From: Winogradskyella tangerina
GTDB taxonomy: Bacteria; Bacteroidota; Bacteroidia; Flavobacteriales; Flavobacteriaceae
DNA length: 64,000 bases
Assembly (NCBI RefSeq): GCF_003260205.1
Contig: NZ_QERF01000001.1
Coordinates: forward strand, 248,001 to 312,000
Direction of reading: 5' to 3'
Made by a program: the position numbers and the translations under genes. This document shows, one piece after another, positions 1 through 10,775 of the stretch; position 1 is the stretch's first letter, and each line of letters begins with the position of its first letter. Under the pieces are notes generated by a model, which was given only the letters and a program-made list of their open reading frames with translations, had not been told where the DNA came from and did no database searches.

Positions 1-3000
1 TAGGAAAAGCAAAATCATGCTGGTCTTCTGCACTCTGAAAAGCTCTTAATAATGCATCAGAACCTTTGACTGAAACAAGAGCTGAACGGATATAGACGGT
101 TTCACTATTATCTCCAAAATACCGTGTAAACCCAGCGTGAGGAATAATAAATCTTTCATTATAAAATTCTGAAAAACCAATTTCTTTATCAAATTTATCT
201 TCGTTAATTGTATCTCTCCATTCTTTATCAAATTTATCATACTCATTTGTCCAAAACTTATCTAACAGAGGTAAGGGGTCTCGTAAATCTGAAGCCCAAA
301 AATCATTCCAAGTGATGGCTTTAGATTTAAGCCAATAGTCCCATGAATCGTAATCATCTTCGTCATCATAATAATTTACTAATTGAGGTTCTTTCGCTAA
401 CAACTCATTAGCAGCACAAAACATAGCATGGTATTCAAAATAAGTGTCTAAACTTTCAACTTGCGGATTGCTTCCTTTTCTCTTATCCCTCAATCCCCAA
501 TCGTAATTTCGAGTATAATCATCTTTATTTATATCGCCAGTATAACCCCATTTTTCTACAATATATTTATCAGCTATGTCTGCGACATCATATTCAGATA
601 AATTAAAAATGTCTCCAAGGTTGCTATACCAATAAGGTAAGACATCCATACCATCAAAATCAAACCTCCAACTTTTGTCTAAAGTTGAATTATATCTTCT
701 TTGCTTTCTTGAATATGATTCTTCTTTTACTTTGTCTAACTTACTTACTAAGACATTTGCAATTATTTCTTGTTCATCTTTGTTGTAGATCTTATCATTA
801 TATTTTAATAAGTTCTGACAGACCCTTTTAATGAAAAAATTAATTAACACGTGTGGTAACTCTTCATTTTGAAGTTCTTTGATAAAAAGTTCTTTTAAGT
901 CCACAAGTTTTTCGGGAGCTTCAGCACTTATTCTATCTATTGCAATCCAAAGATATAATTTGGCAGAAATCCAATAAAAAATGTATTTCTCATTCTGAAA
1001 TGGATTACAAGTGGTTTCATTTTGAGCTTTAATTAGATATTTAAGAATACTTTTATTATTAAGATTAACTAGATTTCTTATGCTATGAATTGCTTCCCAT
1101 CTTAGTTCTTTATCTGGAAGTCCTAAATACAATCGTAAAATATTTGCAATAGCTTCGTCGGTATCTGTTGGTGGAAGTAGCTTATCAGTCCATAAGCCAT
1201 CTCTAAATTCAAGCTTTATGTTTTTATTCCATCGAGTTAAAACCCAATTAAAAATTTCGGTATTATTTTTTTTGGTGAGCCTATGTTTAATTAAGAAAAA
1301 TACACTATATATAGATTCATCAGTTAATACTTCTATTTTTTCTGGTAAAATTTTAAGTATAATTTCTCCTAATTGAATTTCGTCAAAACCAAACATTTTA
1401 GCGAACTCTAACAATTTACCGATGCTAAGAGAATTTCCATAATCAAAGTTTTCAAACCATGTTAGAATGACATATCTAAACTTCTCTTTTTTCCATTGTT
1501 TTAAAGAAGGATAATAACTCCATTCCTCTAACCGTTCTCTAATTGCATCTTCAAATGAATAGAAACTCAAAAGCCCTGAGTCGATATCCACAATAGCATC
1601 CAATTGTTTTGAGTAATCATTAGGCTGACAATTGTTTTTTATTTCAGACAAAAAGTTATCTATTTCCCATCTATTAGAGTAACTGTCGCTATTTTCGATT
1701 ATAGTGCTAATAGCTTTTTCTAAATCTCTTGTAGAATTAATATCAATACTATTAAGGTCTATTCCATGGACGAATTTGTCTTTATCAAAATCATTAGAAT
1801 ATCTGCTTTCTTTTTCTTTTTCAATTGTTTCTCTAAAGTTTAAGTACGCTTTAATTTTTTGGATTATTTGCATTTCAACAAACGCACCTGACTTAATTGC
1901 ATTATAAATATGATTTAACGTATTTTTATTTTTATGAAGTAAGCAATCTCTATAAATAATTTCAACAAATTTAGTTTTACCGATTAAGTCTCTTGATTCA
2001 TCGTATTTAGTCAAAATCATATCATAAAGTTCAATCGATTCGTCTGTATAATATTTATAGTGATACATTGGAATCAACGAACCCGCTACAACATGATTAA
2101 TCTTACCTTTCTTTAAAGAAAACTTTAAAATAGCTACAATATATTTAGACAAACTAATTACACCTCTGTGATGCCATCTAGAGGCTATCGTAAACATTGA
2201 GTTAAAATTGATATCTGCAATTCCATATAAAGCATTTTTATAAGGGAAATGCTTTTTATCATAACCCTCTAACATGTAATCACTATATTCTGTAAACTTA
2301 GCATACTCATGAGCAAGTTTAGGGTCTGTTCTTTCAAATCCTATCTTCGCTAAATCTGACAAACAACTGATTTTAGAGAATGCTTCAAAATCAATTTCTT
2401 CCGTTGCTTTTATAGCTTCATTGAAGTAATACTTACCAGAATTAAAGTCTATTTTTCGACTTAATAAAGCGCATTTTATATAACTTTCTATTCTTTGTGA
2501 TGAAGGGTTTGAACCAGTTTTAATTAATTCATCAATTTCACTTAGCATTTTGAGATTTTTATTTAAGAAGACTTTTACGTGAATTGTTTCTTCAACAATC
2601 CAAAATCTCATTGCAATTTTACTTGCGTTGCTATCTAAGGATGTAACGAGAAAATCTATTAAATCATTATCGTTGATTTTTACTGCAAAGTTTGCTAGAA
2701 GGCCGGCAAAATAATTTACTTTTTCTTTATAACTATATCCGTTTTCGAATCTAAAATTATAATCCCCAGCAAAAGACTCACAAATATTCCTAATTGTAAT
2801 ATTTGCCTTTTCAACAGTTATTTTTTTAGAAACAAAATCCGTATTTAATTGAAATATGGGTAAAACATGCTTATAGAAACTTGTAAACTCTTTTTTCTCT
2901 CTTTCTAAAGAGCTTTTCTCTTTGTAATCTTCAGTCTTATCAATATCATTATATTTAGCTGGAAGTAAACTTTCGACTAACAATAGCTTATCATCAAGAA

Positions 3001-5953
3001 ATGCTTTTAAAGATTTAATCTTTAAAAATAAATTTATTCTGTCTGCACCATCATCACTACCATGTCTTCGATAAAAGCTTGGAATGTACCCTGGTAACTC
3101 AAATTTAATATGTTTTAGAATATTGTTTACCAAATATTTATCAATATCATTAGATATTAATATCTCACAGAAATCGACCAATAATAGTCTGAATTTAATA
3201 TTGAATTTAATTACTTTTCTGGATAGAACTTTTTCAATTTCACTGGCAATTATTTTTAGCTGTAAATCTTGATGCATCCCATATTTATAGGATTTAGTAA
3301 TAACAAATATCTTGGCATCAATTCTTAAAGGCTCTATTTTAAACCATTTATTAATTTCTGTTTTATTACTGAATAAAAATAAACTCTCAATTAAATAATT
3401 TCCCCCAGATAATCTAACGTCTCTAGGTGTCCAACTATTAATTGAACTCAAGGCTTCGTCAAAACCGACTAATCTCAAAACTGCTTCTGTGTAATAAGCT
3501 ATGTCCTTACTTGAAATAGGATATTTATGCAAATCATCTTTTTTAACAGAGTCACTTCTCCAATTAAGCCATTCCTTAGCTGTTTTTAAATGTTTTAAAG
3601 CGGCTTTATGATTCTCTGTCTCTCTTGAATACAGACCTGCTAACTTCATATGAAAAGAGCCAGCCCAGGATTTTTCATCTGAATTGAGTTTTAGTTTATT
3701 AAGCGAAGTATCATCTCCAAATTCGGAAACTAAATCTGGGTAATCAATTAATAATGCCGTTAAGGCTTTCTCCTTTTTAGCTTCTTCAGCAGCTATAAAT
3801 ATAAGTTTAAAATATGTTAAATTATCATCAACATTATCAGCAACCTTCATTGCCAATCTTGTCCTACTTATATAAGTTGCTCTATTTTTTATTGGGTCTT
3901 CTGGAAGTAATAAGAACTTTCTTTCTAGAACTATATCCTTTAATAATTGATTTTGTTTTGACTGAAAAAGTAAGTTACCCAAATTAACGGAAGCATAACT
4001 ATCATTCTTTGCATTTTTAAGAAAAACTTCAGTTATTTGATTTAACCTTTCCTTACTTAATGAATAATTATCTCTAATATAATTTTCAAAATCTTCATCC
4101 CGAAACTCAAAACTATTATTTTCATATATAAGGCCAGTCCAGACTTCAGATGAAATATCTAATAGAAAGCTTTGATCAACATTTAATATTTCTGATAAAT
4201 AATTTATAGGTACAGGTCTTGGCAACCCAATTAAAAGACTAAAAAAATCATCTATAACTATTTTCTCGATATTAGAAACCTTTTTTTTGGCTTCTTTAAT
4301 TTTATCAAGAATAAGTAACTCTACTGTTTTTCCATTTGGCTTTAAAAAATTTATAACTTCTTTTATACCTTTCTTCTTCAAATCGATTGAATAAAATTGA
4401 GCTCTTGGTATACCATAAGTATATTTATGGAAATCTTTAACTTCTTGTTCTGAAATTTCAGGAAAGTATGTTTTTGTGAACAGAGTCGTTTCTTCTAGAC
4501 TAAACGGTTCTAACTCAATATCAATGTAATCTTCCGGTAAGTTAAGTGTATTTCTTCGATGTGTTCTGGTGGTCACAATTAGGTTACAACCCGAGGGAAT
4601 ATCCATATTTAAAATATCATGAACAAAACTTTTATCTCCATTATTATTAGCTGCTGTAATACTATTATCAGCTGCATCGATAATAATGGTAAGAGTAGCA
4701 TCTTTATCTCTCTCCTTCAAAATTTCAACTGCATGTACAATTCTTTTTCTAAACTCCTTAATATAAACATCACTCTCCATAGGAAAATGAAATATTAAAA
4801 AATCTGTACCAACCTTTCTAGCAATATCGTTAGAAATATGTAAAAGTGCATTTTTGTGTAAATGCCTATTGTCTTCGGCATTTTGATATGCCCCTGAACC
4901 ATAACAATCAAAGGTTATACACTCATCGCTATTTCGTAAATATTTTTGTATTTGTTGAATTATAGTTGATTTCCCTATCCCAGCTCCACCGTGAATACAA
5001 ATTGGAAGAAAATCTGTATTTGTTGCTATTTTAGAAATTATCGATTCTAATTGCTCTCTTATAATACTATTCTTGTTATCCTCAAAACTTTGAGTCACAG
5101 GAAATAAATTTTCAATACTACCATCCTTAAAGCTTAAAACTGAAATTATATCTGTTTTAGTTATCTTTCTTTCATTTCTAGCTTCAGGCATCATTTTGTC
5201 AAAAACCATTGCTCTCAACTCGTTGTATTGGATTTTCGAAGTATGTGATGTTCTAGAAATTGCTTTATAAAGTTCAATTTTTAAACTAAACCGCGAATCG
5301 GTTCCGCAATCTTCCAAATCAAGTACCCTTATAAAATCAGTAAACTCTTTTACTTTTAATCTGGAAGCCGCAAATAATTTTTTTAACGAATCACTATTCC
5401 CGGGAATATCCTTGAGTACCTCATTAAAGCTTACTTTTCCTTTCTTTTTAAGTAGATAAGTTTTGATATCATTAATAGACTTGAGATGATTAGGATTAAA
5501 GTTTCTATTTGTAACTAATTTTATCTTAACTTTTTTTAAAACAGACTCTCTACCAAATTCATCTAAATAAATCTTAAATATATTCGCTAACCTGTGAACC
5601 AATGAATTTTCAGTAGATTTGCTTTTTTTTCCTCTATATAAATCGCCTAATGTATAATTCTTATTACTTCTAAGCGTACTATATTTTAGTTGGGAGATAA
5701 CAACTTTTTCAGCTTCAATATAATTATCAGCACCATAATATTCGCTTAGATCTACACCTAGTAAATTTTCCCCTGTTGGATCTAATTGATTTGATTCTGA
5801 CAGTTCAATATCTTCAATATAGATTGCTTTTATTCCCGAATCATCAAAATTTAATAATTCTAAAGATTTTTTTATTGTCCAAAGAATATGAAAATCGTCT
5901 CCTGCGCTAGAGATATCAGCATCTTGTATGTGTTTAATTTTGCCATTACTCAT
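1..5953 (-). CDS. Giant STAND NTPase, candidate Avs-like anti-phage sensor; C-terminus cut by the window edge
   Basis: One unbroken minus-strand reading frame runs from ATG at 5953 to the window edge, giving 1984 codons without a stop. The start is firm because an in-frame TAA lies directly upstream. Residues 15-100 hold a motif around GDDFHILW, then GVD (D68) and SQLK (Q88, K90); this D...QxK spacing fits a PD-(D/E)xK nuclease of the Mrr-like type. Walker A is GGAGIGKST at 322-330 and Walker B ends in IIID at 426 (DAAD). A TTRTHR segment follows, as in NACHT/STAND ATPases. About 1300 further residues look like helical repeats with no motif I recognise. Nuclease-like effector, STAND ATPase and long sensor is the layout of Avs-type defence proteins, which oligomerise on a phage protein. 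The length, the island context and the AT-rich DNA fit. Family placement is inference; the effector could be something other than a nuclease. Confidence 0.8.
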   Translation of the reverse strand, partial: MSNGKIKHIQDADISSAGDDFHILWTIKKSLELLNFDDSGIKAIYIEDIELSESNQLDPTGENLLGVDLSEYYGADNYIEAEKVVISQLKYSTLRSNKNYTLGDLYRGKKSKSTENSLVHRLANIFKIYLDEFGRESVLKKVKIKLVTNRNFNPNHLKSINDIKTYLLKKKGKVSFNEVLKDIPGNSDSLKKLFAASRLKVKEFTDFIRVLDLEDCGTDSRFSLKIELYKAISRTSHTSKIQYNELRAMVFDKMMPEARNERKITKTDIISVLSFKDGSIENLFPVTQSFEDNKNSIIREQLESIISKIATNTDFLPICIHGGAGIGKSTIIQQIQKYLRNSDECITFDCYGSGAYQNAEDNRHLHKNALLHISNDIARKVGTDFLIFHFPMESDVYIKEFRKRIVHAVEILKERDKDATLTIIIDAADNSITAANNNGDKSFVHDILNMDIPSGCNLIVTTRTHRRNTLNLPEDYIDIELEPFSLEETTLFTKTYFPEISEQEVKDFHKYTYGIPRAQFYSIDLKKKGIKEVINFLKPNGKTVELLILDKIKEAKKKVSNIEKIVIDDFFSLLIGLPRPVPINYLSEILNVDQSFLLDISSEVWTGLIYENNSFEFRDEDFENYIRDNYSLSKERLNQITEVFLKNAKNDSYASVNLGNLLFQSKQNQLLKDIVLERKFLLLPEDPIKNRATYISRTRLAMKVADNVDDNLTYFKLIFIAAEEAKKEKALTALLIDYPDLVSEFGDDTSLNKLKLNSDEKSWAGSFHMKLAGLYSRETENHKAALKHLKTAKEWLNWRSDSVKKDDLHKYPISSKDIAYYTEAVLRLVGFDEALSSINSWTPRDVRLSGGNYLIESLFLFSNKTEINKWFKIEPLRIDAKIFVITKSYKYGMHQDLQLKIIASEIEKVLSRKVIKFNIKFRLLLVDFCEILISNDIDKYLVNNILKHIKFELPGYIPSFYRRHGSDDGADRINLFLKIKSLKAFLDDKLLLVESLLPAKYNDIDKTEDYKEKSSLEREKKEFTSFYKHVLPIFQLNTDFVSKKITVEKANITIRNICESFAGDYNFRFENGYSYKEKVNYFAGLLANFAVKINDNDLIDFLVTSLDSNASKIAMRFWIVEETIHVKVFLNKNLKMLSEIDELIKTGSNPSSQRIESYIKCALLSRKIDFNSGKYYFNEAIKATEEIDFEAFSKISCLSDLAKIGFERTDPKLAHEYAKFTEYSDYMLEGYDKKHFPYKNALYGIADINFNSMFTIASRWHHRGVISLSKYIVAILKFSLKKGKINHVVAGSLIPMYHYKYYTDESIELYDMILTKYDESRDLIGKTKFVEIIYRDCLLHKNKNTLNHIYNAIKSGAFVEMQIIQKIKAYLNFRETIEKEKESRYSNDFDKDKFVHGIDLNSIDINSTRDLEKAISTIIENSDSYSNRWEIDNFLSEIKNNCQPNDYSKQLDAIVDIDSGLLSFYSFEDAIRERLEEWSYYPSLKQWKKEKFRYVILTWFENFDYGNSLSIGKLLEFAKMFGFDEIQLGEIILKILPEKIEVLTDESIYSVFFLIKHRLTKKNNTEIFNWVLTRWNKNIKLEFRDGLWTDKLLPPTDTDEAIANILRLYLGLPDKELRWEAIHSIRNLVNLNNKSILKYLIKAQNETTCNPFQNEKYIFYWISAKLYLWIAIDRISAEAPEKLVDLKELFIKELQNEELPHVLINFFIKRVCQNLLKYNDKIYNKDEQEIIANVLVSKLDKVKEESYSRKQRRYNSTLDKSWRFDFDGMDVLPYWYSNLGDIFNLSEYDVADIADKYIVEKWGYTGDINKDDYTRNYDWGLRDKRKGSNPQVESLDTYFEYHAMFCAANELLAKEPQLVNYYDDEDDYDSWDYWLKSKAITWNDFWASDLRDPLPLLDKFWTNEYDKFDKEWRDTINEDKFDKEIGFSEFYNERFIIPHAGFTRYFGDNSETVYIRSALVSVKGSDALLRAFQSAEDQHDFAFP

Positions 5954-6039: not shown

Positions 6040-6480
6040 TTACAAGAAATGAGTCTTTAAATTACGGATAATAATTTTTAGTTCATTTAGTTCTTTCCTT
6101 AAAAATATAATATCACCTTTCGTAGCTGGTAAAGATTTTGGCGCAAACAATTTTTTTGCAGCATATACTCCTGCGTCTGCTGCTATTGTACCCAAAGCCG
6201 CTTCCCCTAGAGAATTTGTTCCGACACCTTTTCTATTATTAAGTTCTTCTATACGTTTTTCTAGTGACTGAACAACTAATATTAAATCATCTATATTTGT
6301 AAGCTCGGGTAGATTTTCAGTATTTGAAAGTTCACTTTTTTCATAATGCCCAGAAATATACTTATAACCGTTTCTCTTATAGCTTGCTTTTGTCCTACAA
6401 CTGGCATTACAATATAAGTGGTTGCTTCTCCTCTGTACAAATTGTTGTTTACAATGTTTACAAAACCTTGTTTTTTCCAT
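6040..6480 (-). CDS. Small zinc-finger protein of unknown function
   Basis: This is a 146-residue protein. Four cysteines at 7, 10, 24 and 28 (CxxC, 13 residues, CxxxC) next to many basic residues suggest an N-terminal zinc finger that could bind nucleic acid. Residues 60-80 form a short coiled coil (VVQSLEKRIEELNNR). Residues 85-110 are Gly/Ala-rich (EAALGTIAADAG) and may insert into or lie on a membrane. A second helical stretch closes the protein. It lies between the helicase-loader gene and the giant STAND gene on the same strand, with 86 bp to the STAND start. I do not recognise a named family. It could be an element regulator or an accessory partner of the STAND protein; neither is shown. 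Confidence 0.7.
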   Translation of the reverse strand: MEKTRFCKHCKQQFVQRRSNHLYCNASCRTKASYKRNGYKYISGHYEKSELSNTENLPELTNIDDLILVVQSLEKRIEELNNRKGVGTNSLGEAALGTIAADAGVYAAKKLFAPKSLPATKGDIIFLRKELNELKIIIRNLKTHFL

Positions 6481-6533: not shown

Positions 6534-7268
6534 TTACATCCTTTTACTTTTACCCCTTATTGTTACATAATTGCACATACCAAAAATTCTATCTGCTACT
6601 CTAGCATCATAAAAATCTTCTAATTGTAGTAAATTTTCCTTTGGTAACTCCTCAAAACCAGGTATAGGATTCATGGTATAATGTGTTTTACAATTATTTC
6701 TTTCTCTATTCATAATTATTCTCAGCATCACATTAGTTTTTCCGTAATTGTTAGCAATTTTTTCTGAATGTAAATCATCAAATAGAATTACACCTGTCGA
6801 ATATTTATTAAAAAATTCTTTTTTGTCATTAGGACATTTTAGTCCTTCAAATTCCTGAACTACATCATCAGTAGAAACTGTTTTGAATCTATGAGGTGGG
6901 TATTTTTTAAAAATCTTTTCAAAACATTTCATTATTCTAGTTTTGCCAACTCCTACTGGACCTGCAACAAAAAGTCCTTTATTGTACATCGGTACCACAT
7001 CATCTTGAAATAGGTTATTTGATCTGTAAAAATTTAAATCGTGTAAAAAATAATTGAATATTACTGCCCAATTATTTTTTAAATATTCATCTGTATAAAC
7101 GAATTTTACACCAAACAATTTTTCATAAGTATCTGTGAAAACATCCCAAAGTTCTTTCTTTGTAAATGGATGATTTATTCTAGAATTTATGCTTTTTTGT
7201 TTTAGCTCCATCCTGATTTTTTCAGAAATTATTCTGCAATCGTCGTTATTATTAGCTTGGTTTTTCAT
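6534..7268 (-). CDS. DnaC-like AAA+ ATPase, putative helicase loader of the element
   Basis: The 244-residue protein carries Walker A GPVGVGKT at 103-110 and Walker B VILFDDL with D164 and D165. A TMNP sensor-1-like segment lies near 200, and the DARVADRIF motif near 215-225 carries the likely arginine finger. This is the order of the DnaC/IstB-type AAA+ ATPases that load replicative helicase. The N-terminal 95 residues are helical and unassigned, as in phage DnaC-like loaders. The gene starts 2 bp after the DnaD-like gene ends, so the two are almost certainly co-transcribed and act together in replicating the element. IstB of an insertion sequence is less likely because no IstA transposase is nearby. 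Confidence 0.85.
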   Translation of the reverse strand: MKNQANNNDDCRIISEKIRMELKQKSINSRINHPFTKKELWDVFTDTYEKLFGVKFVYTDEYLKNNWAVIFNYFLHDLNFYRSNNLFQDDVVPMYNKGLFVAGPVGVGKTRIMKCFEKIFKKYPPHRFKTVSTDDVVQEFEGLKCPNDKKEFFNKYSTGVILFDDLHSEKIANNYGKTNVMLRIIMNRERNNCKTHYTMNPIPGFEELPKENLLQLEDFYDARVADRIFGMCNYVTIRGKSKRM

Positions 7269-7270
7269 AC

Positions 7271-7942
7271 CTATCTATTACCTATTACTTTTTTTGGTTC
7301 ATTAGACTTAACGACCACTGATTTGATGTTTTTTTCCATTATCAACCATTTCGACAGACGCTTGTCAATTTCAAAAAAACGCTCATTTTCAAATCTCATT
7401 CTAGATTTGTCAATATTTAACTCGCTCCAGTGGTTATAAAAACTATTTAAAATTTTAAAATCATATTGAGAGTGTTCAAAAACTTGGTTTTTGAATTTTT
7501 TACGTCTCAACTCTATTTTTTCTTTATTAGCCTTATTATTCTTATTTCTTTCTTTAGTAGTTGTTGATTGTTTGTTGTTAGAGTGTTGATTGTTTGTTAA
7601 CTGAGTGTTGTTTTGTTTGTTACTGTAAGATTTGGCCGTTTGGTAATTATCATAGTTTACAATGGTTATTAGCGTAAATCTGTTTGTTGGCTTCAATACT
7701 ATGGCATTACTATCACTAAGTTTAAAAAGTGAAGTTCTTATTGATTGAGCTGAAATCATTAATTCGGATGCTAAATGACCTATTGAAGTAATTAATTGTC
7801 CACGCTTTATTAATTTCCCTTGCCATTTTTTGTTTTTAAAATTGGCTTTAATAAGCAGATGTATATAAACTCGAAATACGTTGGGACTTTGGTACCACTC
7901 CCACTCCATAATATCCCTATGTAGAATAATGTGTCCAACCAT
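7271..7942 (-). CDS. DnaD-like / phage replisome-organiser-type replication protein
   Basis: The 223-residue protein begins with a segment (HRDIMEWEWYQSPNVFRVYIHLL, residues 8-30) typical of the winged-helix N-terminus of phage replisome organisers and DnaD-like proteins. Residues 45-75 continue that domain (GQLITSIGHLASEL). A low-complexity Asn/Gln/Thr/Lys linker spans about 105-145 and a helical C-terminal domain follows. Such proteins bind the origin and recruit the helicase loader, here encoded immediately downstream. The gene begins 1 bp from the end of the helix-turn-helix gene. The assignment rests on the N-terminal pattern and context. No iteron-type origin was recognised inside the gene. 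Confidence 0.7.
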   Translation of the reverse strand: MVGHIILHRDIMEWEWYQSPNVFRVYIHLLIKANFKNKKWQGKLIKRGQLITSIGHLASELMISAQSIRTSLFKLSDSNAIVLKPTNRFTLITIVNYDNYQTAKSYSNKQNNTQLTNNQHSNNKQSTTTKERNKNNKANKEKIELRRKKFKNQVFEHSQYDFKILNSFYNHWSELNIDKSRMRFENERFFEIDKRLSKWLIMEKNIKSVVVKSNEPKKVIGNR

Positions 7943-7943
7943 C

Positions 7944-8228
7944 TTAAACTTGCTTTACTAGTTTATTAAATATGTCGCTTTTCTTATAGTAAACGCGGTT
8001 TCCTAGACGGTAGGAAGGAAGGATGCCATTTTTACGCCAATTCCATAGTGCTTGTTTGGAGCATTTTAAGAGCTTCAGAGTTTCTTCAACTGTTAAAAGT
8101 TCGTCAGAAAATGCAGGTTTATTTACCTCCTTTTTCTGTTGAGGCATTAACTCTTGAACAATAGAGCGAATACTCTCCTTGAACTCATCAGGCGATAAAT
8201 TATATATTCTTATTTCTTTTGAATTCAT
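7944..8228 (-). CDS. Helix-turn-helix (MerR/excisionase-type) DNA-binding protein
   Basis: The 94-residue protein ends in a compact DNA-binding domain at about 45-90. It reads LLTVEETLKLLKCSKQALW, then RKNGILPSYRLGNRVYYKKSDI, the standard helix_turn_helix_17 / excisionase pattern with a wing. The N-terminal 40 residues are a helical extension. It is the first gene of a tight three-gene replication run and follows the integrase and RteC-like genes. This suggests a recombination directionality factor, a control protein, or both. Which role it plays cannot be read from sequence. Confidence 0.8.
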   Translation of the reverse strand: MNSKEIRIYNLSPDEFKESIRSIVQELMPQQKKEVNKPAFSDELLTVEETLKLLKCSKQALWNWRKNGILPSYRLGNRVYYKKSDIFNKLVKQV

Positions 8229-8318: not shown

Positions 8319-9083
8319 CTAATCTAGTCCGTCCTTTTTGTTATATGGGAAAAGTGTAAAATGAAAGTTTTCTTTTGCCTGTTTATTTTTTTTGTTATTA
8401 GGATTAACATATACTTGTAAAGAGGTCAAAGCCACATTTTCATTACAATTGAAAATTTTTATCAATTCCTTTGCTAACCGCCTATTATTAATCTCACCTC
8501 TAGACTTTGGCCCATCCAAATAACCCTTTGTAATCAACTCCTCTATGATTACCCCTAATTCTGAAGGACCCGCCAGCCATTTTAAAGAAGTAACTGGTGA
8601 TGGATCTTTATATTCTTCGACAAAACTTTTTAGCAGTTCTAATTTCTTTTGTAACTCATGCTTTTTGTTTGTAGCCGAAGTAAAATGTTTAAAGTAATTG
8701 TTCTCGAACGTACGTTTTTTTATCACACCTTCTGTATTAACAAAATCATCTTCAAGAGGTATTTCTTTATAATAGCTCATACCCATTTGATAAGGTTGGC
8801 ATTCTTCAATAACATTTTCTACTGTGGGAACAACTTTTAATTCTAGCACTTTATAATACTCTTCAGGATCATCACAATAATCATAATGATGTTCTAAAAA
8901 GTCCTTAGTACTTAAAATATCAACATCTAATATAAACTTTGATAGGAAATATTTAAGATTGAAGTTTTCATCAAGTCTAAGGTTGTCATCTTTGTATTTA
9001 TCAATTAAATAACTGTAATCAATAAGTGAAAACTCACTTTGATCTTTTTTATCTCTGAATGCAAAAACATCTTTATAAACCAT
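8319..9083 (-). CDS. RteC-like protein, partner of the element integrase
   Basis: The 254-residue protein has an acidic, helical N-terminal half. Its C-terminal part at about 165-240 has the arrangement LKWLAGPSELGVIIEEL, then GYLD, then RRLAKELIKIFN and LQVYVNP. This resembles the C-terminal domain of RteC and related Bacteroidetes proteins, which regulate excision of conjugative elements. It begins 5 bp after the integrase gene ends, so both are probably transcribed together. RteC-like genes next to tyrosine integrases are common in flavobacterial islands. The similarity is judged by eye, so the name is tentative. Confidence 0.6.
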   Translation of the reverse strand: MVYKDVFAFRDKKDQSEFSLIDYSYLIDKYKDDNLRLDENFNLKYFLSKFILDVDILSTKDFLEHHYDYCDDPEEYYKVLELKVVPTVENVIEECQPYQMGMSYYKEIPLEDDFVNTEGVIKKRTFENNYFKHFTSATNKKHELQKKLELLKSFVEEYKDPSPVTSLKWLAGPSELGVIIEELITKGYLDGPKSRGEINNRRLAKELIKIFNCNENVALTSLQVYVNPNNKKNKQAKENFHFTLFPYNKKDGLD

Positions 9084-9088
9084 ATTAT

Positions 9089-10381
9089 TTATCTGAAAAA
9101 TTTACTGTCCGCAATTTTTACAGCTCTTTCTTGAGGTGTAACCTTAATATATTTATAGAACTCTCGTTCCGTCGAATGTCCGCTTATTGCCATAATATCA
9201 ATGACTGGCATCTTTGTCAAGTATGCATTAGTACAAAATGACCGTCTTGCCGTATGCGATTGAATAAGACTATATTTCGGTACAGTATGCTCTATCACCT
9301 TTCCATTCATCTTTCTTTCCAAAGGAATCTCACTATCAATTTTCGCTTTTCTACCAACCTCTTTTATGAACTCATTGATGTCGGGTGCATTCAATTCAGG
9401 CGGTGGATTACCGCCATATCGGTCTTTGAAAATTTTCTTCAATTTTGGGTGTAGAGGTACAAATAGCTTCTTACTTGTTTTCTTTTGCTTAAATTCAATG
9501 ACTTCTGTTCCTTGAAACTTTTTAATTTGATTTTGTACTATGGGATTATAATCTGAAACTCGTTGTCCTGTATAATATCCAACTAAAAAAATATCTCTGG
9601 CCAATTCCCAATCCTTAGTTTTTGACAAATCAACATCATAAATGGCATCTATTTCTTCTTCTGTTAAATAAATGGAAACAGTATCTTCAGATAGAGCTTT
9701 AAATTCTCTGTGTTTGTATTTTAAACTTGAATTGTAACCCTCCTCTGTAGCTGAATTTAAAATTGTCTTTAAGTTTTTTATATGCTTCCCGATGGTATTA
9801 GTTGTATAATTATTCTTTTCTAAGTATTTAATGAACTCATAATAGAAGTCTAAATCAATGGTATTAAAGTCTAATGAGTAACCCAATTCATTGCTAAAAT
9901 CTCGAAGCCTATTTACTGTTTGTTTATAAGATCTTACAGTTACAGGACTTAGTTTAGCACTAGTAATACTTTTAGACAGACTTTCCTTTCTTAAAATAAA
10001 GCTGTCTGCATATTGAAAGAAAGACTTCGGTATTGATACATCCTTCTGTTCACCTCTAATAATTTTTTGCAACAGTGATTTAAGGATTGATTTATTAGTC
10101 CTTTCGACATCATCTAGATTTACGGTCTCCTTTACAAATTCCGCTAAGTATTTTGCTAAATCAGCATTAACTGATTCTCTATTTTCAATTGTAGAAATAG
10201 CCCTGATTCTTTGGTTTGAGTCATCCCAATATTTTGGATTCACCTTATAACCAGTAGAAAATTTGATTCTATTGTTTCGCCCAAAACTATAATCTAATAT
10301 TATTGATGTTTCCTTCTTTGCATTTGGCTCTTTTAACCTGTATTTTGCTGTTCCAGAAGTAAGTTTTATAGTCTTAGTCAT
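9089..10381 (-). CDS. Tyrosine-type site-specific integrase of the island
   Basis: The 430-residue protein has the three-part plan of Bacteroidetes element integrases. An arm-type DNA-binding domain spans about 10-90, a SAM-like core-binding domain about 120-215, and a catalytic domain from about 235. The catalytic set is visible: R274 in TGQRVSD, a lysine in the QKKTSKK hairpin near 300, H376 and R379 in HTARR, H402 in SGHS, and the nucleophile Y411 in YKYIKV. It would cut and join the island at its attachment site. The gene reads away from the two 56-bp repeats at 10553-10775, so it lies at the right end of the island next to the presumed att site. Confidence 0.92.
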   Translation of the reverse strand: MTKTIKLTSGTAKYRLKEPNAKKETSIILDYSFGRNNRIKFSTGYKVNPKYWDDSNQRIRAISTIENRESVNADLAKYLAEFVKETVNLDDVERTNKSILKSLLQKIIRGEQKDVSIPKSFFQYADSFILRKESLSKSITSAKLSPVTVRSYKQTVNRLRDFSNELGYSLDFNTIDLDFYYEFIKYLEKNNYTTNTIGKHIKNLKTILNSATEEGYNSSLKYKHREFKALSEDTVSIYLTEEEIDAIYDVDLSKTKDWELARDIFLVGYYTGQRVSDYNPIVQNQIKKFQGTEVIEFKQKKTSKKLFVPLHPKLKKIFKDRYGGNPPPELNAPDINEFIKEVGRKAKIDSEIPLERKMNGKVIEHTVPKYSLIQSHTARRSFCTNAYLTKMPVIDIMAISGHSTEREFYKYIKVTPQERAVKIADSKFFR

Positions 10382-10552: not shown

Positions 10553-10608
10553 CTGGAGGCACCACCAGAAGCGCAAAACCCACTCAAACGAGTGGGTTTT
10601 TTGGTTTA
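10553..10608. repeat. Candidate attachment-site repeat, copy 1 (tRNA 3'-end-like plus terminator)
   Basis: This 56-bp unit matches 10720-10775 at 55 of 56 positions; only G10568 differs (A in copy 2). It starts CTGGAGGCACCACCA, which can be read as the 3' strand of a tRNA T-stem and acceptor stem, a discriminator A and CCA. A strong intrinsic terminator follows: an 11-bp stem AAAACCCACTC / GAGTGGGTTTT at 10575-10600 with loop AAAC and a T-run. No complete tRNA precedes it. An island inserted in the 3' end of a tRNA would leave just such a truncated copy at its distal end. The tRNA identity is unknown. Confidence 0.55.
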
Positions 10609-10719: not shown

Positions 10720-10775
10720 CTGGAGGCACCACCAAAAGCGCAAAACCCACTCAAACGAGTGGGTTTTTTGGTTTA
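10720..10775. repeat. Candidate attachment-site repeat, copy 2 (tRNA 3'-end-like plus terminator)
   Basis: This is the second copy of the 56-bp unit, 167 bp from the first, with the same terminator stem at 10742-10767. It is preceded by GAATC, so GAATCCTGG extends the T-loop and T-stem likeness further than in copy 1. The 111 bp between copies contain no gene. They hold small hairpins (GTTCC-GAA-GGAAC at 10691-10703). This copy would be the outermost one, adjoining chromosomal ilvE. Two copies suggest two successive insertions, or a leftover stub of an earlier element. Confidence 0.55.

Follow-up and report, generated by a model that had tools for sequence, protein, structure and literature searches.

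The 64,000 nucleotides (nt) of Winogradskyella tangerina contig NZ_QERF01000001.1 analysed here, hereafter the window (C1:248001-312000), begin within a giant minus-strand gene whose open reading frame at 2..5953 stays open to the window edge (1983 codons inside the window) and which in the whole genome encodes 2152 amino acids (aa; C1:247495-253953). With a probability of roughly 80%, this locus is the avs3a gene of an AVAST type III (Avs3) system of Bacteroidota type, a terminase-sensing STAND nuclease that would stop the infected cell, with the partner gene avs3b overlapping its 3' end. The protein follows the order of nuclease, STAND ATPase and helical sensor (Table 1), and the residues that the original prediction had named in this frame (D68, Q88-L-K90, a Walker A motif at 322-330 and D426) all lie where it placed them. 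The Walker A motif reads GGAGIGKST and contains K328, and D426 is the Walker B residue. D68, Q88, L89 and K90, together with the Walker A GK[ST] and Walker B DA[AG]DN motifs, are kept in all 20 aligned homologues, which were drawn from Bacteroidota, Proteobacteria and Bacillota, so these motifs are not a matter of chance. The Pfam match to NACHT sits at its cutoff (26.9 vs 26.7 bits). The prediction of an anti-phage STAND ATPase of the Avs type, bearing a QxK nuclease at its N-terminus and lying near an integrase, is in keeping with the Avs3a profiles, the motifs and the recombinase gene close by, but the gene does not mark the distal end of the island, as had been thought, since avs3b and two more genes, one HEPN-like and one with DUF4238, come after it beyond the window edge.

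Table 1. Features of the avs3 island, in window positions unless C1 coordinates are given
Feature	Position	Strand or place	Basis
avs3a, first 1983 of 2152 codons	1..5953	-	remainder left of window to C1:247495; Avs3a profiles and 8DGC
Helical sensor region, from about residue 661 on, portion inside window	1..3970	-	aligned to SeAvs3; least conserved part
STAND ATPase core, about residues 315-525, Walker A 322-330, Walker B D426	4380..5010	-	NACHT and related Pfam matches; conserved motifs
Cap4-type PD-(D/E)xK nuclease domain, residues 1 to about 283, D68/Q88/K90	5104..5953	-	motif conservation; model best match 8dgc_A
146-aa gene, no confident family	6040..6480	-	just upstream of avs3a; homologue in G163 island
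244-aa P-loop ATPase resembling DnaC/DnaA-type loaders	6534..7268	-	weak NCBIfam and Pfam matches
223-aa gene, no family match	7271..7942	-	homologue in G163 island
HTH_17 excisionase-like protein	7944..8228	-	Pfam HTH_17 6.9e-12
254-aa gene, no family match	8319..9083	-	homologue in G163 island
Tyrosine recombinase (integrase) of island	9089..10381	-	Phage_int_SAM_5, Phage_integrase, Arm-DNA-bind_5
avs3b	C1:246837-247541, outside window	follows avs3a	PADLOC Avs3b 1e-25; 47-nt overlap
HEPN-like gene, 244 aa	C1:246024-246758, outside window	behind avs3b	RNLIVH motif
DUF4238 gene, 367 aa	C1:244917-246020, outside window	after HEPN-like gene	Pfam 4.9e-36

Relation to the Avs3 family and expected mode of action

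The PADLOC Avs3a profile matches the giant protein from end to end (E 4.3e-238, profile positions 10-2090 of 2090, protein residues 15-2144), and in the profile search against Avs families proposed with the original prediction it was the only PADLOC profile to reach the E-value limit of 1. The profiles of Avs1, Avs2, Avs4 and Avs5, which according to PMC12931631 are likewise STAND sensors of phage proteins, stayed outside that limit. The sole PDB sequence match is the SeAvs3 structure 8DGC (E 3.9e-143), entitled 'Avs3 bound to phage PhiV-1 terminase', to which residues 1155-2147 align with 224 bits. A structure model lacking a restriction-endonuclease fold had been named as a sign against the prediction; the model of residues 1-283 matches restriction-type nucleases, with 8dgc_A best and other Cap4-type nucleases next, and the closest known systems for this domain include the nuclease domains of Cap4, HerA-DUF4297, LmuA and Hachiman. 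The likeness to SeAvs3 extends to the domain order, the end-to-end alignment, the catalytic and Walker motifs and the overlapping avs3b gene. An unnamed Avs family was considered and rejected in view of the Avs3a profiles in both PADLOC and NCBIfam and the 8DGC match. The earlier statement that effector and sensor both fall outside any family that can be named, and the suggestion of an unnamed branch or undescribed system built on it, must therefore be withdrawn: both ends of the protein lead to SeAvs3 and its partner is Avs3b. Judged by sequence, this is a known kind of system, in a distant version of Avs3.

Several results weigh against this assignment. The NCBIfam Avs3a match of the giant protein (852.1 bits vs a curated cutoff of 2800) and the Avs3b match of its partner (98 bits vs 200) fall so far under their cutoffs that NCBI's own rule would not name the protein Avs3a. 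Confidence in the nuclease model is middling, with a predicted local distance difference test score (pLDDT) of 62.4 and values below 50 for residues 46-74, which include D68. Identity to Klebsiella Avs3a, which itself scores 4396 bits against 8DGC, is about 23% overall and 28% in the nuclease and ATPase but just 20.6% in the sensor, so that the ligand may differ. In addition, one full-length avs3a relative (L033) yields no Avs3b by phmmer. Since the equivalogs NF041816 and NF041817 represent a narrow naming rule close to the typed Avs3a and Avs3b, the protein is placed by its matches in the wider Avs3 family and outside these two equivalogs.

PMC12931631 gives large terminase and portal proteins, or Ksap1, as the ligands of Avs1-Avs4, which bring about cell death by cleaving the genomes of both phage and host. 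Homology to SeAvs3 suggests that the window protein senses terminase likewise. By analogy with SeAvs3, the extended helical stretch at the C-terminus would bind an infecting phage's large terminase subunit, tetramerisation would then be driven by the STAND ATPase, and paired N-terminal Cap4-type nuclease domains (D68, Q88, K90) would cut double-stranded DNA, stopping the infection, probably through killing of the cell. Avs3b, read from the overlapping frame, may act as a helical accessory. Effector and switch could also be unchanged while the sensor of the Bacteroidota branch reads another phage protein, such as portal or another structural protein; the drop in sensor identity relative to the nuclease and ATPase and the range of ligands recognised across Avs1-Avs4 speak for such a shift, which is nevertheless improbable given that the Avs3a profile match spans the sensor up to the C-terminus and that the 224-bit alignment to 8DGC covers this region.

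Avs3b, its distribution and the mosaic island

The pair is sparsely distributed in the host's family: Avs3a matches at E 1e-10 or better occur in five of 397 genomes, as long copies in the host's own genome, G163, G382 and G393 and as short fragments in G389, and Avs3b matches at E 0.001 also occur in five, the same four with long copies plus G179, where the match contains stops. The N-terminal fragments in G389 (C2:20963-21385 and C1:24936-25124) correspond to open frames of 156 and 82 aa and are 78-80% identical; this genome also has an Argonaute-HEPN island. A search of a contig collection with Avs3a returned 16 loci (14 full length) from 13 Bacteroidota genomes. Winogradskyella luteola and Lacinutrix algicola carry avs3a-avs3b pairs with 88% identity. 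The two partial relatives without an Avs3b match, L019 (an 887-aa frame) and L020 (short), were excluded from further comparison. Across the 24 full-length loci read (the window, L005-L018, L028-L033 and L054-L056), avs3b directly follows avs3a in 23; a Fibrella plasmid (L034) with avs3b behind a shortened avs3a was left out of this count. Avs3a matches were also present in 19 plasmid records, of which the regions of seven were read, and the search of a phage collection gave no Avs3a match. Homologues found mainly in housekeeping contexts would have spoken against the prediction, but the Avs3a homologues adjoin Avs3b and partly also integrase or other defence-like genes. The Avs3b model is all helical (predicted template modelling score 0.46), and a fold search with it returned no PDB match at E 0.001 or better.

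The island combines defence modules in a mosaic. The RNLIVH motif of the 244-aa gene behind avs3b is what we take to be HEPN-like; R-N-x-x-V-H is present in 12 of 13 aligned rows, with G for R in L090. At E 1e-15, 18 of the 397 family genomes have a homologue of this protein. Eleven loci were read from the 16 of these genomes besides the host's own and G163 (G076, G084, G130, G306 and G348 are not among them), and in all eleven the HEPN-like gene lies beside a relative of a 703-aa Argonaute, with the order of the two reversed in L088-L090 and a shorter Argonaute frame of 410 aa in L086. The same-genus loci L051 and L052 also carry Argonaute, HEPN-like and DUF4238 genes, their Argonautes matching PADLOC pAgo (1.3e-288 and 5.6e-290) and Pfam Piwi. 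Taken over L080-L090, L051 and L052, a prokaryotic Argonaute of about 703 aa (PADLOC pAgo, Piwi) stands beside the HEPN-like gene, mostly with DUF4238 as well, in what looks like a conserved Argonaute-HEPN pair in the host's family; the gene on the other side of the Argonaute varies (ApeA-like in L052). At the window locus, 24 to 34 nt just before the HEPN-like gene align with the 3' end of the Argonaute gene. This remnant and the Argonaute neighbourhood of the HEPN-like gene in relatives show that the avs3 pair at some point became linked to an Argonaute island's tail. A locus that no longer works, an island remnant whose intact gene is unexpressed, would fit this mosaic with its Argonaute-island tail and the broken relatives in G389 and G179, but is very unlikely with 2152 codons open, every motif kept and avs3b open too.

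On the right side, same-genus homology begins at C1:258,806 (window 10,806), and on the left, seven same-genus loci cease to be homologous at 244,839-244,902. An island boundary at C1:244,903 was considered and rejected, because similar metal-efflux-like genes also adjoin Argonaute islands in relatives and the cluster may therefore be island cargo. The genes concerned (L002:2554-12868, left of the window) adjoin the DUF4238 end and resemble by eye a Cus-type metal-efflux cluster; similar genes adjoin several Argonaute islands. Exact direct repeats of at least 13 nt between C1:258001-259000 and C1:232001-246000 were absent, the longest in a narrower scan being 12 nt, and a tRNA and tmRNA scan of the window and L002 found none. 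Beside the integrase end lie two near-identical 55-nt direct repeats (window 10554-10608 and 10721-10775), each with a terminator-like inverted repeat, and the host's genome holds no further match to this motif at up to 2 mismatches.

The overlap of avs3a and avs3b and two exchanges

With avs3b starts predicted as the first ATG of the frame, the first 47 nt of avs3b coincide with the end of avs3a in the window locus, in all 14 of L005-L018 and in G163; in G382 the start aligns and avs3a extends further, giving an overlap of 74 nt, so that the 47-nt overlap is found in 16 of the 17 loci of this Bacteroidota clade. The Klebsiella record differs, with 107 nt. Annotated overlaps in five loci outside the clade measure 107, 35, 11, 41 and 14 nt, and in the distant G393 the open frames overlap by 44 nt. 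In a 15-codon scan of 16 aligned clade sequences (G382 excluded), none of the 2191 windows exceeds the final 15 codons of avs3a in synonymous-codon identity (0.876; mean 0.555, standard deviation 0.067). They still rank first of 1982 when only four- and sixfold residues are counted (0.825 vs a mean of 0.403) and first of 1879 with ten representatives (0.749 vs 0.361). By this codon signal, both reading frames are evidently constrained within the overlap. A second peak of synonymous identity (0.833), near alignment column ~2029 towards the avs3a 3' end, may only reflect twofold codons. Among the matches listed for Avs3, SeAvs3 and AVAST, no title or abstract start describes the overlap or an exchange at avs3, and the word Avs3b was not found in the papers searched; most of the subscription literature lay outside the scope of both searches.

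G163 belongs to another genus of the same family and has the same gene order as the window locus (integrase, 252 aa, helix-turn-helix (HTH), 239 aa, ATPase, 147 aa, avs3a, avs3b, HEPN-like, DUF4238). Between the two, Avs3a is 48.6% identical and Avs3b 88.9%. DNA identity per 25 nt lies at 28-84% in the 400 nt leading up to the avs3b start and at 84-100% in the 300 nt that follow, the step falling exactly at the start codon, and the overlap itself is identical. The opposite pattern is seen between L011 and L017 (Polaribacter and Algibacter), with Avs3a 87.3% and Avs3b 53.5% identical; here DNA identity of 64-96% ahead of the avs3b start gives way to 76-88% over the next 75 nt and then to 40-68%, a gradual fall 50-100 nt after the start, just past the overlap. 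In the Avs3b tree, G163 groups with the window (support 100/99) and a grouping of L011 with L017 is rejected by the approximately unbiased test (p-AU 5.6e-6). In a quick Avs3a tree, L011 and L017 are joined (100 in the Shimodaira-Hasegawa-like approximate likelihood ratio test, SH-aLRT) and a grouping of the window with G163 is rejected (p-AU 2.5e-5), while a placement of G163 as sister to a clade of five close rows is not (p-AU 0.082). The two pairs are the largest discordances picked among 253 pairs, with tests not named beforehand. Avs3a and Avs3b identities otherwise correlate (r 0.92 over the 253 pairs), which makes exchange an exception.

Probably, the overlap is kept only for coupled translation and the chance sharing of DNA by two conserved protein ends, with breakpoints that mark the gene border and no special part for the shared DNA in exchange. 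The overlaps of other lengths outside the clade indicate that overlap as such is general; just two exchanges were seen against the strong correlation of identities, and the L011/L017 fall is gradual and lies beyond the overlap. Less easily accommodated are the window/G163 step exactly at the avs3b start codon with an identical overlap, and the overlap being the best conserved DNA of avs3a, for which reason it could act as a shared stretch for recombination. Tentatively, the 47-nt dual-coding overlap may serve as a recombination hinge in Bacteroidota, the whole sensor-nuclease gene being swapped beneath a retained Avs3b, so that one kind of Avs3b would serve Avs3a proteins only about 49% alike, and the pair would travel on mosaic islands that also gain parts of Argonaute islands (the HEPN-DUF4238 tail).

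Avs3 with an Avs3b partner is now seen in several Bacteroidota families. Islands with near-same Avs3b (89%) and very different Avs3a (49%) amount to a natural swap experiment, through which the role of Avs3b becomes testable. They also suggest that bacteria could have a simple way of replacing an immune sensor and retaining its accessory.
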